This document shows positions 31,208 to 37,404 of a stretch of 37,404 nt of DNA, in pieces. Source of the DNA: Gammaproteobacteria bacterium (lineage in GTDB: Bacteria; Pseudomonadota; Gammaproteobacteria; S012-40); the NCBI GenBank assembly GCA_919902765.1, contig CAKKRP010000060.1:1-37404 (forward strand), given 5' to 3'. The first letter of the stretch is position 1, and each line of letters starts with the position of its first letter. The translations under genes and the position numbers were made by a program. A model generated the notes under the pieces. That model did no database searches and was not told where the DNA came from. It worked only from the letters and a program-made list of their open reading frames with translations.

Positions 31208-33913
31208 TTATACCACGCGTCGGCGATAACGGCGTCTTAGGCGTTGCATCCCGACCCATAACAATAACGCCATCCCCCCTACCCCGTCCGCGCCCCAGCG
31301 CGAAGAAGAGGATGGGTAGGCCACTTCAACCTGCATCGCCACGCGATTATTGGCGGGCGTGGGATCGGCGAACAACCCGCCTACGCCGAAATTGACTTGG
31401 TAAGCGCCGCTAAAACTGGGTGTGACGGTGACGCTTGCGGCGACCGAGTTCGCACCGGTAAACGGGCAGCTATAAAAATTATCGAATAACACGCAACCGG
31501 TAAGCGAAGATGTCGCGTTCGCATTGCTTTCAGGCAATTCTACCCATAACCTAGGTCGATCATCTGCGGCAACCAACGAATTGGTAAGCGTAATATTAAA
31601 AGTGATGCTTGCGCCCAATTGAATATTGGGGGAACTCGCCACACCCGCCACTGCGAAATCCACTAGATCGGCATTCGCCTCATCCCATACGACCATCCAC
31701 CCATCGCGCGTACCTTGCAACGCGGAACCACTCACCGTCGCGGCGGCATCGGCGCTCTCCGTGCCGCCCACCGCAACCCATTTTTTCCCCTGATTCGCCA
31801 AGGCGACATCATAAAAAAAATCGACCCCCGCACCGCCCATAAAAGTGCTGGTCGCCAGCGTTAAAGGCGTCTCAACCGTCGCGTCATAAACGAAGCGTGC
31901 GAGAAAGCCATCGCTTTGCCGTACCAACGATTGCGCCGCGTTTTTTAATAAAAAATCAGACGAGGCCGTGTGCCCGGCGACTATCAAATCGAACGTAGTC
32001 CCGTTGGACAACGGCCAAACCGCTAAGGATTCCGCATTATCTGCGGAACTGCCGCCGAGGGTGGAAGAAAATAACAATTGACTCCCTGATGCGTTAAACC
32101 CGGCCACGAATGCGTCATAATCCTCGCTCGTTCGCCCAGGCCGATTCGGCTGCGCGGTGATCTCCGGTATTTGTTTGTAGAGTGGAAAAGACCTCAGCGC
32201 AGGGTCACCTGCCGGGAGCGGGGTTCCTGCCGTCAACGGCGCCAATCCCGATTGAGTCGCGCCGGTTAGAAATATATTGATGCCGCTCACCCGCACACGC
32301 GACGCCAATTCATCCCGCGACCCGCCTAAATAGGTCGTAAAATTGATCGTATAACTATTGAGCGCACCTTGCGCCCATTGAGTCAAAAATGCATCTCGGC
32401 ATGGAAACGCCGCCCCTTGATCGGCGGATAAGCCACCCTTGGCGCAGGTACCGCCTGCAAATGATTTATAACTATAGGTTGACTTAGCAGGTTTACCGAT
32501 ATCTGCAGAATTTGTATGCCCGGCTAAATAAATATTGCCGCTGTTATCGACGTCCAAACTCACCCCGTAGTCATCGCCCGAGCCGCCGAAACGAGTGGCA
32601 AATGCCACACCCCAGGTCGCGCCGGTCGGATCTCTGATGTTATCTTCGAATATCTTCACTACAAACGCATCAAGCTTCTTTGGAGTGCTCGATAAAGGGT
32701 TGAATACCTTAAAATCAGAGGAATCGCTGGTGCCTGCCACGTAAATATACGAGTTATTATAAACAATGGCGCGCCCCGCCTCTTTACCGCCGCTGCCATA
32801 ATAGGTGGAATTTATCAGCACTAAGTTGTTATCAAAACTTGCAACAAAGGCATCCGGCGCCACCACCAGGCCGCTAATGGCGTCACGGCCTATGGAGGCT
32901 TGCGGAGGCGTGTTTCCCCGTATAGGGAAATCGTCGGAAAGGGTAGAGCCGGTGATATAAATTCTGCCTGACCCAGGGTCTATCGCAATCGCATGCCCGG
33001 CATCTTCATCGTTGCCGCCTAAATAGGTCACTAGGTCAGTAACGCCTGTAGTTACATCAATCTTAGCCACAACTACGTCGCGTTTTTTTGCATAGGCGAG
33101 CAACGGAGCGGATAAATCCGCCGAGGTGGTCGTGCCCACCACATAATATTTCGTTTCCCCCACACCCACCGCGATACCCTCAATCGCCTCGCCGCCACCC
33201 CCTCCTATGAACCTTGCCAGACTTACCTTGGGATCAATGACCGTAGGCACATCCGCACGCTGACCACGCATTGCGATGCCCCAACTGCCGTCTTTGTGCT
33301 TAACGAAATGTCCTTGCACCGGCACACGTCGATCATTCAATAATTGATAGATGTACGGCGCATGATGTTTCCACTGCGTGGTACCGGCCTCCACCACTAA
33401 CTCGCCTTGTGCATTTAACCAGCTACGCTCCGCACCACGTAAGCGCATGCGTATCGCCGCCGCCGAGGCCCCAGGCGCAACCACCCAATCGTATTCCACG
33501 GATTCGCCGTCCAACCTGAAGACCATGTCTATACCTGGATATACTTGGCGGTAAATAACGCGTTGAAAGGTGGGCGCGACGATGGATCGCCGCCCGCGAT
33601 AATAGCGGTGTACGCGCGTCAAGCGCCCTAGGCCCTGCGGACGCACCCTATGGCCACCTAATAATTCGATGGCCACCTCGCGATCTTGCATCCGCCATGC
33701 GCACGACGCATCGCCACACAACACCGCATAATTGGGCGCGCGTACTACGTATTGGATAGTGGTCGCGGCCTGCCCCCGATTGGCTTCGAACACGGGAGAA
33801 ATCGAGGGTGTAACGGCCGCGCTCGCCGCTGCGCTCCAAACCATGAGCGATATGAGTGCCGTTATGGTCCGGCACCGGCGTGCAACTGCAACCAGGAAAA
33901 TGTTTATAATCAT
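31208..33913 (-). CDS. Secreted SBBP beta-propeller protein with sorting-like tail
   Basis: A 901-residue exported protein. The ATG at 33911-33913 has TGGAG 7 bases upstream and gives a signal peptide of about 34 residues (ending AAASAA); longer frames lack a ribosome site. The first about 230 residues have the FEANRGQ-type domain common before SBBP repeats. Repeats with a (F/Y)LGG or FGGSGDD start and an IY(I/L)(T/A)GxTxSxDF end recur at least five times, forming propeller blades. A DUF11-like beta domain follows (about 770-880). The C-terminus is SSSSR, Gly/Gly, a hydrophobic stretch and an Arg cluster, like GlyGly- or PEP-CTERM sorting tails. Surface location is inferred. Confidence 0.8.
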   Translation of the reverse strand: MIINIFLVAVARRCRTITALISLMVWSAAASAAVTPSISPVFEANRGQAATTIQYVVRAPNYAVLCGDASCAWRMQDREVAIELLGGHRVRPQGLGRLTRVHRYYRGRRSIVAPTFQRVIYRQVYPGIDMVFRLDGESVEYDWVVAPGASAAAIRMRLRGAERSWLNAQGELVVEAGTTQWKHHAPYIYQLLNDRRVPVQGHFVKHKDGSWGIAMRGQRADVPTVIDPKVSLARFIGGGGGEAIEGIAVGVGETKYYVVGTTTSADLSAPLLAYAKKRDVVVAKIDVTTGVTDLVTYLGGNDEDAGHAIAIDPGSGRIYITGSTLSDDFPIRGNTPPQASIGRDAISGLVVAPDAFVASFDNNLVLINSTYYGSGGKEAGRAIVYNNSYIYVAGTSDSSDFKVFNPLSSTPKKLDAFVVKIFEDNIRDPTGATWGVAFATRFGGSGDDYGVSLDVDNSGNIYLAGHTNSADIGKPAKSTYSYKSFAGGTCAKGGLSADQGAAFPCRDAFLTQWAQGALNSYTINFTTYLGGSRDELASRVRVSGINIFLTGATQSGLAPLTAGTPLPAGDPALRSFPLYKQIPEITAQPNRPGRTSEDYDAFVAGFNASGSQLLFSSTLGGSSADNAESLAVWPLSNGTTFDLIVAGHTASSDFLLKNAAQSLVRQSDGFLARFVYDATVETPLTLATSTFMGGAGVDFFYDVALANQGKKWVAVGGTESADAAATVSGSALQGTRDGWMVVWDEANADLVDFAVAGVASSPNIQLGASITFNITLTNSLVAADDRPRLWVELPESNANATSSLTGCVLFDNFYSCPFTGANSVAASVTVTPSFSGAYQVNFGVGGLFADPTPANNRVAMQVEVAYPSSSSRWGADGVGGMALLLWVGMQRLRRRYRRRVV

Positions 33914-34133
33914 AGTGTTACTCCATCTTGCCCGTGTCATAGCAGGCCCTGCCGCCTCAAGATATTTAGGCATATGCCGACATTGTAGCCACAGTCTAGG
34001 CGTCGGACTGATGGTCAATGATACCTAATTTTCGGCGTTATTAGTTCTATACGGCAAAAAATCATGGCCCTGACAACCCGATGCTAGATATTTCAGCTTA
34101 AGCTTTACCAGCGATGCTAAGGAATTCGTACCC

Positions 34134-36566
34134 ATGACGGACAACGTACTCCTCGAATTACCGACCCCCCCACGCTCCAAAGGGGGGGCTGATTTTGACA
34201 ATCGACACCCGGAAGATGTCAAACTCTGTCTGATCAACGGTCAACAAATTTACGGCAAATTATTACATTTCAGCATCGATCTCGGCGCGCTGACGATTTC
34301 CGTCAAAGATGGCCACCACGCGACCGGTGAGCACCATCCTTCGGCAAAAGAGGCCGCCCACTCGACCGCCACCGAATATCGAATGACGGACATAAAAAAT
34401 CTGCGCTTGTTAGAGTCGCGCCAATTCACGCCCGCAGGGAATTTTCTTGTAGGCATGGAAGCGCAAACGGAGCTGCCCGATCGCCAAGAATATGAACTCG
34501 ATTACATCGATGGCACCAAAGAAATCGGCGAAACATTTGGATTTATTACGGACCAAAACGGCCTGCATTTATTTATAGCGCAACCCTTTAGTAAATATCT
34601 GCATAGCTTTATCCCCTTGCAAGCGCTACAAGATTACCGTATCGGGCCGCAACTTGGGCAAATGCTCGTCGATACCGATGCCCTGAGTCAATTTAATTTA
34701 GAGCAAGGCCTGCAAAAACAAGAAAATTTGCGTCAGAAAAAGATCGGAGAATACCTCACCGCCAACGCGATCGTGTCGGTTGAACATCTCCAAGCCGCAC
34801 TGTCGCGCCAGGGCATTTCGCCGGTCATGAAACTCGGCGAGGCCTTGTTACAAGATAAAATAATCACGCAAGAACAACTCGAACAGGCCCTCGTCGCGCA
34901 AAAAAAAGATCGCACGCAACCACTCGGCGCGATATTGATCGATTTGGGATTCGTCACCGATGAAGTTATCAAACGCACCCTCGCCGCGAAGCTGGGCATC
35001 CCTGTCGTAGACTTGCCGAAGTTTACTATCGCCCCCGAAGTCATAGATAAAGTGCCGGAGCACATCGTACGCAAACACAATGTCTTACCGTTGTGTATCT
35101 ACAACTCCAAATTAGTGGTTGCGACGGACGATCCTATACACCGTGGCCCCATTGAGGATTTACGCTTTCATACCAAGATGTTCATCGAACCGGTGATGGC
35201 GCGTAGCGAAGACATTGCAACGGCCATTAACACTTATTACGGCTCGCGCATAGGCATGTTGGCAGAGGCGCTAGATGCCGGGGAAGGCAACGATTCGTTG
35301 GATATTTCAGAAATCGACGATTCAGACAACACCTTGGTGCGGTTGGTCAATAAAATGATCATCGATGCGTACGAACAAGGGGCCTCGGATATACACGTCG
35401 AGCCCTATCCGGGCAAACAACGCACGATAATTCGGTTTCGTAAAGACGGCGACCTCCAATCCTATGTCGATGTGCCCAATAGTTACCGCAATGCCCTTAT
35501 CTCACGCATAAAAATCATGTGCAACTTGGATATTTCCGAGCGTCGCAAACCGCAAGATGGAAAAATTAATTTTCGTAAGTTCGGACCGTTGGATTTGGAA
35601 TTGCGCGTGGCCACCATACCCACGGCGGGCGGGTTGGAAGATATCGTATTACGCCTGCTGTCAAGCGGCGAGCCCCTGCCCATGGATAAATTAGGCTTGA
35701 GCGAAAACAACTCCAACGGTATTAAAAAAATCATTGCTAAACCCTATGGATTGTTTTTGGTATGCGGCCCCACGGGATCGGGTAAAACCACGACCCTGCA
35801 CTCGATATTAGGCGAATTAAATCGCCCGGATTTGAAAATTTGGACCGCTGAAGACCCCATAGAAATCACCCAACGGGGGCTACGCCAGGTGCAAATCAAT
35901 AATAAAATCGATGTCACCTTTGCCAATGCGATGCGGGCATTCCTGCGTGCCGACCCCGACATCATCATGGTCGGTGAAATGCGCGACGAGGAAACCGCGC
36001 GTATCGGCATAGAGGCCTCGCTCACCGGTCACCTGGTGTTCTCCACCTTGCACACCAACAGCGCGCCAGAGAGCATCGTACGCCTACTCGATATGGGCCT
36101 GGACCCATTCAATTTCGCCGACGCCTTGCTGGGCGTGCTGGCGCAACGTTTGGCCAAACGCCTGTGTCCAAAATGCAAGGTAAGCCACGCGGCCAGCGAC
36201 GCCTTATTACAAGAATACGCCGAAGAATATCTATTGGAAACTCAGGGCACGACCCCGCAGCAACATGCGGAATTGGTGGCGGGATGGAAAAAAACATTCG
36301 CCAACGCGCAAGGCGAAATAACGCTCTATCGCCCGGCCGGCTGCGATGAGTGCGGCAACACCGGATACAAGGGGCGCTTCGGTGTACACGAGCTGTTGGT
36401 GGGCAGTGAAACCGTGAAAGATCTCATACACCAGCGCGCCAAAGTCTCGCAAGTGTTCGACGTCGCGATGCGCGAGGGTATGCGCACCTTAAAACAGGAT
36501 GGAATCGTTAAAATGCTGAAAGGAACGACCGACATAGGACAAATACGCGCCGTATGTATCCGATAA
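34134..36566 (+). CDS. GspE/PilB-type secretion ATPase with MshEN repeats
   Basis: An 810-residue ATPase of the type II secretion/type IV pilus family. A beta-rich N-terminal domain (about 28-180) is followed by three motifs of the MshEN type (starting near 202, 231 and 262: K(I/L)GE-L...I...L..AL..Q), then the ATPase core. Walker A GPTGSGKTTT is near 545, the Asp box WTAEDPIE near 570, Walker B DPDIIMVGEMRD near 605 and the His box STLHTNSAPE near 638. Zinc cysteines are CPKC (about 678) and CDEC (about 737). It is longer than PilB or GspE. No pilus or secretion partner is adjacent. AAGGA lies about 10 bases before the ATG. A C-rich palindrome encodes PTPPRSKGG in the first 20 residues. Confidence 0.88.
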   Translation: MTDNVLLELPTPPRSKGGADFDNRHPEDVKLCLINGQQIYGKLLHFSIDLGALTISVKDGHHATGEHHPSAKEAAHSTATEYRMTDIKNLRLLESRQFTPAGNFLVGMEAQTELPDRQEYELDYIDGTKEIGETFGFITDQNGLHLFIAQPFSKYLHSFIPLQALQDYRIGPQLGQMLVDTDALSQFNLEQGLQKQENLRQKKIGEYLTANAIVSVEHLQAALSRQGISPVMKLGEALLQDKIITQEQLEQALVAQKKDRTQPLGAILIDLGFVTDEVIKRTLAAKLGIPVVDLPKFTIAPEVIDKVPEHIVRKHNVLPLCIYNSKLVVATDDPIHRGPIEDLRFHTKMFIEPVMARSEDIATAINTYYGSRIGMLAEALDAGEGNDSLDISEIDDSDNTLVRLVNKMIIDAYEQGASDIHVEPYPGKQRTIIRFRKDGDLQSYVDVPNSYRNALISRIKIMCNLDISERRKPQDGKINFRKFGPLDLELRVATIPTAGGLEDIVLRLLSSGEPLPMDKLGLSENNSNGIKKIIAKPYGLFLVCGPTGSGKTTTLHSILGELNRPDLKIWTAEDPIEITQRGLRQVQINNKIDVTFANAMRAFLRADPDIIMVGEMRDEETARIGIEASLTGHLVFSTLHTNSAPESIVRLLDMGLDPFNFADALLGVLAQRLAKRLCPKCKVSHAASDALLQEYAEEYLLETQGTTPQQHAELVAGWKKTFANAQGEITLYRPAGCDECGNTGYKGRFGVHELLVGSETVKDLIHQRAKVSQVFDVAMREGMRTLKQDGIVKMLKGTTDIGQIRAVCIR
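34165..34188 (+). repeat. C7/G7 palindrome inside the ATPase reading frame
   Basis: Seven C residues (34165-34171), a 10-base loop and seven G residues (34182-34188) form a strong stem about 30 bases after the ATPase start codon. It resembles the dispersed hairpin at 28285-28303 and reads through in frame. Confidence 0.7.
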
Positions 36567-36732
36567 AATTAAAAGCGCGCAACACTAGCGTCCCTGCCCG
36601 CATGCGCGCATTGTTGGAATTGATTTCCTTCCTTGGTAAAAATATCGGACTAATATACTCGGATTATTGGAAGGAACCACTTTCTAGCGGATGCGGCTGC
36701 AAGAATTATGAATACAACACGCGACGCTGACA

Positions 36733-36752
36733 ACCTGTAAAGAGTTACAGGG
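36733..36752 (-). promoter_or_regulatory. Lux-box-like palindrome after luxR
   Basis: ACCTGTAAAGAGTTACAGGG has 7-bp perfect arms (CCTGTAA/TTACAGG) around AGAG and agrees with the 20-bp Vibrio fischeri lux box (ACCTGT...TACAGG) at 13 of 20 positions, including nearly all of the outer bases. On the minus strand a CATAAT -10-like hexamer (36710-36705) lies so that the box would be centred about 44 bases before the start (near 36698), the normal spacing for LuxR-activated promoters. No T-run follows the palindrome, so it is not an intrinsic terminator. Confidence 0.55.
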
Positions 36753-36779
36753 TGTAGAGATCGAAAAACCGCCGCTTTG

Positions 36780-37346
36780 TTAATTAAGCTGCAATAATCC
36801 CATGCGGGCGGCGTTGGCCACCGCCTGAGAGCGGGTCGATGCCCCTAATTTAGACATCGCATTTTGCACGTGATAGGTGACCGTGCGCTGACTAATCGCC
36901 AAAATACGAGAAATTTCCCAACTGGTTTTGCCGGCGAGTATCCACTGCAAAATTTCGCGCTCGCGTCCTGTTAGGTCCACAACCGCGCGTCCACTGCGCA
37001 TGCGCGCCGCGCAACGCGTCAATGCCGCATGTAGGTGTGGAATAACCGCACGCAATACCACAAAATTATCAGACTGCAAGGCCGCTGCATTGCCTAAAAA
37101 TGAAAATAAAGTCATTGCGCCGATGTGCTCGCAACGCCAGCCCAAGGTCATTCCCTGATGCACGCCAAATGCCCAACTCGCCTGCACCAATCCAGGCGGC
37201 GCATTTTGATGTGCATCGGTGTAGGTTTGCGATAAGAGTGTCGCTTGATGCGTGGATAAACAATCGGTTAAATCGGTGCCTAAGGCGACGCTGTTGATTA
37301 AATAGTAGTATTGCAATTGATCGAATAGCGCGGCGGCATTCACCAC
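36780..37346 (-). CDS. LuxR-type transcription regulator, 5' end doubtful
   Basis: A 188-residue protein. The C-terminal LuxR helix-turn-helix (about 122-185) is intact: LTGREREILQWILAGKTSWE, EISRILAISQRTVTYHVQNA and LGASTRSQAVANA. The first about 115 residues look like the autoinducer-binding domain (LFDQLQYYYLINS near the start; ASWAFGVHQGMTLG; VIPHLHAAL before the linker). The start is a GTG (37344-37346) without a ribosome site, and an in-frame TAA lies 21 bases upstream, so about 20 residues of the usual N-terminus are missing. The typical Trp/Tyr/Asp ligand residues are also not evident. It may be 5'-truncated or degraded. A signal synthase gene is not present in the window. Confidence 0.75.
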   Translation of the reverse strand: MVNAAALFDQLQYYYLINSVALGTDLTDCLSTHQATLLSQTYTDAHQNAPPGLVQASWAFGVHQGMTLGWRCEHIGAMTLFSFLGNAAALQSDNFVVLRAVIPHLHAALTRCAARMRSGRAVVDLTGREREILQWILAGKTSWEISRILAISQRTVTYHVQNAMSKLGASTRSQAVANAARMGLLQLN

Positions 37347-37404
37347 CGGCCCAGGGCTGTCCCATTAAAAATTCTGATTCAATATAAATTGTAGAGATGC
37401 GTTT

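Follow-up and report, generated by a model that had tools for sequence, protein, structure and literature searches.

A conserved lux-box-type palindrome downstream of a luxR gene probably controls a small RNA of about 134 nt, which we predict on the minus strand at 36565-36698 of the window. The window is the whole of contig C60 (37,404 nucleotides) in a 3.3-Mb, 157-contig genome (G000). The best overall explanation of the locus, to which we give an even chance, is that a LuxR-type protein activates this RNA and that the RNA probably titrates CsrA. The comparison of the locus rests on two genomes, G000 and G001, a gammaproteobacterial MAG of the same genus; a LuxR search across the species genomes recovered the same locus in the G001 record alone.

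The palindrome, ACCTGTAAAGAGTTACAGGG (36733-36752, without strand), starts 27 bp past the luxR stop codon (36780-36782, minus strand). It has the form of a lux box, an inverted repeat of 18-20 bp with CTGT...ACAG arms at lux spacing: its half-sites, CCTGTA-N6-TACAGG, equal the V. fischeri lux box ACCTGTAGGATCGTACAGGT in arms and spacing (PMC4444344), and its core is similar to the cep box consensus CTGTAAAAGTTACCAG (PMC1766932). A whole-genome pattern scan for CCTGTAA-N3-5-TTACAGG found one place in 3,304,039 bases and none in the reversed control, and 0.011 places were expected genome-wide for the exact N4 form from base composition. With one mismatch allowed, CTGTAA-N4-TTACAG occurred at 8 places in the genome versus 11 in the control, so degenerate matches are uninformative and only the exact site stands out. 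The results confirmed that the palindrome is real and beyond chance; the sequence-only reading had asked whether it would score above the genome background, which it does in the exact form and not in the one-mismatch form. A further site, CCTGTCAAGTTTTACAGG, lies upstream of a DUF3579 gene (G000:C155:4925-4942; L109 1500-1519) and is a possible second target of the same regulator; a site of this type was not found in G001 by exact pattern.

A promoter scan of the window placed a predicted -35 hexamer, TTGTCA (36728-36733, minus strand), against the box with a one-base overlap, and a predicted -10 hexamer, CATAAT (36705-36710, minus strand), after a 17-nt spacer, with 10 of 12 consensus matches. 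Together with the single exact place in the genome, this bears out the earlier description of a 20-bp lux-box-like palindrome with a minus-strand CATAAT. Relative to the predicted start (~36698), the box is centred at about -43 to -45 and overlaps the -35, as in class II promoters, where the site is centred near -42.5 and overlaps the -35. This spacing, calculated with the predicted start, is kept in G001, in which the -10 reads CATACT and lies exactly 23 nt from the box, as in the window, although the sequence between has diverged. The palindrome could instead be the site of another regulator with a LuxR-type HTH, such as GacA/UvrY, and the RNA a Csr RNA under the Gac control that is usual for such RNAs. 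TGTAA/TTACA half-sites are also found in GacA sites, but those sites are wider than a lux box and lie far upstream, whereas here the half-sites have lux-box spacing (CCTGTA-N6-TACAGG), the box overlaps the -35 and luxR is adjacent. We consider this the remotest of the readings.

The conservation of the box was assessed against the divergence of its surroundings. The neighbouring ATPase gene is 72% identical in DNA between G000 and G001, and its third codon positions (last 200 codons) are 44% identical, indicating that neutral (synonymous) sequence is saturated. Two blocks survive in the spacer between the ATPase gene and luxR, namely the box and positions 36565-36613. The conserved core of the box (36730-36755) keeps 22 of 26 bases in G001, a value reached by none of 2000 random sequences (maximum 19), so the palindrome is conserved in a relative with the same luxR, as the sequence-only reading had anticipated. 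G001 keeps the ATPase/luxR arrangement with an intact luxR. Because of extra sequence between the box and luxR, about 900 bp separate its luxR from the ATPase gene; the box and the hairpin described below remain together. An element of about 230 bp with terminal inverted repeats CCTAGAAACGGC is found between the box and luxR in G001 (L059 3138-3367); a single copy of the CCTAGAAACGGC 12-mer is present in G000:C51, between luxR and luxI. The ATPase orthologues of three other genera of the family have no luxR beside them, and the downstream regions of more distant LuxR homologues, among the loci recognised, showed no comparable box.

The arrangement resembles a luxR-luxI tandem, and one option raised from the sequence was that luxI had been lost from it. 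The box would then be a relic promoter, belonging to a luxI that once stood between luxR and the ATPase gene and was deleted. Such tandems do occur in the family (G004). However, no luxI stands beside the box-linked luxR in G000 or G001, nor at the orthologous ATPase loci of the three other genera, and G001, with the same layout, keeps the box, the -10 and the hairpin at a divergence at which a relic would have decayed. Both genomes also keep a luxI elsewhere, in G000 on contig C51 beside a different luxR, and its upstream region carries a different conserved block, ATAGATATCCTGTCCTGACAGATCTGACAGTATGG. The loss of luxI from this locus was therefore not upheld, and a relic is very unlikely. The C51 luxI (L003 3717-4473) has a perfectly conserved 35-bp upstream block with a tra-box-like CTGACAGATCTGACAG; it is convergent to an AHL-type luxR and adjoins a phosphopantetheinyl-transferase-like gene.

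Over 50 nt, the second surviving block (36565-36613) shows 92% identity between the window and G001. Read as minus-strand RNA, it forms a 13-pair hairpin followed by UUUUAAUUUU. The hairpin (36575-36609, minus strand) has the hexaloop AGGGAC closed by a C-G pair and is followed by TTTTAATTTT; its fold energies are -18.5 and -23.7 kcal/mol in the two genomes, and all of its pairs are kept in G001. Two pairs differ between the window and G001 and both still pair, one changing from U.G to G-C on both sides and the other from G.U to G-C. In the window, three pairs are of the G.U wobble type when read on the minus strand and would be mismatches on the plus strand, making the minus strand the better candidate for the hairpin. 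The promoter and terminator scan of the window, which considered simple stems with loops of 3-8 only, did not report this hairpin.

From the positions of the promoter and the terminator-type hairpin, the predicted RNA would start near 36698 and end in the U-tract at 36574-36565; roughly 130 bp separate the start from the end of the ATPase gene. That gene encodes a GspE/PilB-type secretion ATPase (T2SSE, MshEN; 34134-36566, plus strand) and is the convergent neighbour; positions 31208-34018 encode a large protein that looks secreted and carries DUF7948 and SBBP beta-propeller repeats. The conserved box, -10 and terminator-type hairpin on one strand, with no conserved reading frame, point to a small-RNA gene. 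An ORF of eight codons in the hairpin block (ATG CGC GCA ... TAG) was considered and rejected: its third positions vary no more than the others, the substitutions maintain pairing instead, and no Shine-Dalgarno sequence is suitably placed. A covariance-model search of 36400-36900 against Rfam gave no match up to E=5, and no copy of the RNA was found elsewhere among 13 genomes of the family besides G001. As an alternative to luxI loss, the sequence-only reading had proposed a small RNA or an antisense RNA that extends into the ATPase gene. The conserved promoter and the conserved minus-strand hairpin favour the small RNA, over the antisense RNA as well as over a lost luxI; since the predicted RNA would end at the ATPase stop codon, it would not be antisense to the ATPase coding region, and the antisense proposal was not supported.

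The minus-strand hairpin could simply be the luxR terminator. The whole spacer would then be an ordinary one between convergent genes, with a bidirectional terminator shared by the two genes, and the palindrome would be a LuxR-bound site or a second hairpin without an RNA of its own. The convergent layout agrees with this, the minus-strand U-tract suits the end of a luxR mRNA, and the window palindrome can itself fold at about -10 kcal/mol. However, no U-tract follows the palindrome, and the changes inside the box in G001 break its inner pairs without compensation, so the box fits a protein-binding site rather than a stem. The spacing to the -10 is kept across a diverged spacer, the box and hairpin stay together in G001 despite the inserted element that separates luxR from them, and terminator loops require no conservation. 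We therefore regard an ordinary convergent spacer as unlikely, though clearly less so than a luxI relic, and retain the small RNA as the preferred reading.

The predicted RNA carries two motifs of the CsrA/RsmA type. Taken together with its closing pair, the hexaloop has the sequence CAGGGACG and matches CANGGANG exactly (36596-36589, minus strand); CANGGANG is the Rsm-binding motif (PMC6849547). Upstream, CAAGGAAG (36628-36635, minus strand) also matches CANGGANG and is replaced by CACGGAAG at the homologous place in G001; the first base of the motif lies 22 and 23 nt before the hairpin block, respectively, inside otherwise diverged sequence. The two CANGGANG motifs are thus at matching positions in both genomes, about 30-31 nt apart. 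Among dinucleotide shuffles, at least two CANGGANG motifs arose in 0.005% for the window RNA and 0.025% for the G001 RNA, figures that apply to a motif spotted post hoc, after the hairpin was seen. Shared gapped 8-mers in the variable part were at chance level (2 seen versus 1.9 expected).

SELEX showed that CsrA prefers GGA in a six-nt loop, one CsrA dimer bridges two sites 10-63 nt apart, and McaS and GadY act with at least two CsrA sites (PMC7652899). Antagonists of Csr/Rsm proteins carry at least two CANGGANG or ANGGA sites, preferably in hexaloops; two such sites were found in both genomes, one of them in a hexaloop, and both genomes encode csrA (PF02599 in G000 and G001). Given two conserved motifs at a bridgeable spacing and an encoded CsrA, the predicted RNA most likely acts by titrating CsrA. 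In the predicted window fold, UUCCUUCC pairs with every base of the upstream motif's GGA, the stem is longer than is typical of a CsrA hairpin, and the predicted RNA holds just 3-4 GGA, few for an RNA of the CsrB/RsmZ type. If the RNA exists, we put its binding to CsrA at slightly under an even chance.

The small RNA driven by a lux-type promoter could also work through base pairing, as Hfq-dependent RNAs do, instead of titrating CsrA, the conserved hairpin segment being its seed or only its terminator. The same promoter and terminator evidence applies to such an RNA, and the LuxR-type-regulated Lrs1 of P. aeruginosa depends on Hfq (PMC3460626). Against it, the conserved loop matches the CsrA consensus exactly, with the second copy standing in the same place in both genomes. 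A base-pairing RNA is a possibility we rate at about one chance in four's worth of credence, below CsrA titration.

The luxR gene of the window (36780-37351, minus strand) is the C-terminal part, about 190 codons, of a gene for a LuxR-type regulator with a GerE HTH, and the end of an insertion sequence (37352-37404, minus strand; terminal TTTAATGGGACAGCCCTG) forms the contig end. These last 53 bases recur at more than 12 other contig ends, with the shared TTTAATGGGACAGCCCTG and one of two outer sequences. Many copies of this TTTAATGGGACAGCCCTG-ended element, which makes a 10-bp target duplication, are present in the genome and are probably a main cause of its assembly breaks. The N-terminal part of luxR lies at a terminus of contig C110, where it borders the opposite end of the same element, and the 10-bp target-site duplication GGCCGGTGGT (37342-37351, minus strand) has its other copy there. 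Joined at one GGCCGGTGGT copy, the flanks give a single open frame resembling the intact G001 protein, and C110 and the G001 contig both carry tRNA-His, tRNA-Arg, tRNA-Pro and pnp beyond luxR. The joined flanks, the target duplication and the shared context indicate that luxR is interrupted in this genome. The luxR that had been placed beside the box is indeed there, but as a C-terminal fragment whose splitting by an insertion sequence had gone unnoticed. The box may consequently lack its regulator here, and the circuit in this genome may be inactive or may be under the control of another LuxR.

The GerE (LuxR-type) DNA-binding domain (PF00196) scored 71 bits. A profile search found no match to the autoinducer-binding domain PF03472 in the intact G001 LuxR; the C51 LuxR matches PF03472 at 1e-25. 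The conserved W, Y, D and W of the autoinducer-binding domain are the ligand-contacting residues. When the G001 protein was aligned with CviR, its nearest solved relative, one Y was kept and the W, the D and the second W were replaced, so that the LuxR of this locus looks like a LuxR solo. An AlphaFold model of the LuxR was too poor to use (mean pLDDT 45.8).

In the mechanism we propose, the box would be the activator site of a minus-strand promoter of the class II type, driving an untranslated RNA of ~134 nt from ~36698 to the hairpin and U-tract just short of the ATPase gene. The gene directly preceding the box on the same strand most likely encoded the ancestral activator, a LuxR-type protein, giving a layout of luxR, box and small RNA in place of luxR, box and luxI. 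The RNA would most likely bind CsrA through both CANGGANG sites, of which one sits in the 3' hairpin's hexaloop, and so free mRNAs from CsrA control while the regulator is active. With luxR cut by the insertion sequence, the promoter is probably uninduced here or served by another LuxR. That a LuxR without AHL-binding residues switches on a two-site CsrA-titrating RNA from a box beside its own gene, replacing luxI, also requires the adjacent LuxR to be the activator, and we accordingly hold this full combination only tentatively, as less probable than its parts.

LuxR-type control of small RNAs, and of the Csr system, is already known, and the locus is a variant of these. Lrs1 and Lrs2 of Pseudomonas aeruginosa are LasR-dependent small RNAs and likewise have a LuxR-type (LasR) binding site in the promoter (PMC3460626, PMC6739362). 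Unlike the predicted RNA, Lrs1 lies upstream of pqsA and not beside lasR and works with Hfq, and the parts of these sources seen describe no CsrA-site layout. CsrB, RsmY/RsmZ, McaS and GadY share with it the hexaloop GGA with CANGGANG, two sites, a short RNA, a terminator-type hairpin and the presence of CsrA (PMC7652899); the predicted RNA differs from the Csr/Rsm RNAs in its few GGA, the lux-type box in its promoter and the lack of an Rfam match. In the rhlR-rhlI and cepR-cepI tandems, too, the promoter that follows luxR has its -35 overlapped by a lux-type box, whereas here luxI is missing and the predicted output is a short RNA. LuxR-type regulators reach the Csr system in SdiA, through uvrY, and in ExpR of Pectobacterium, which directly controls rsmA (PMC3376562). 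The ExpR target is the rsmA gene, activated without AHL via an expR box (PMC3376562), whereas here it would be an antagonist RNA. A literature search of incomplete coverage gave, among its 15 best matches, no paper linking a lux box to rsmZ, rsmB or csrB.

The links known so far between LuxR-type regulators and Csr are mostly indirect. If the proposed mechanism is true, a LuxR solo would here act on the Csr system directly at the level of transcription, and a LuxR-type signal would reach global post-transcriptional control by a short route. An orphan lux box beside a luxR without luxI could then mark a small-RNA gene that gene-based annotation has missed.
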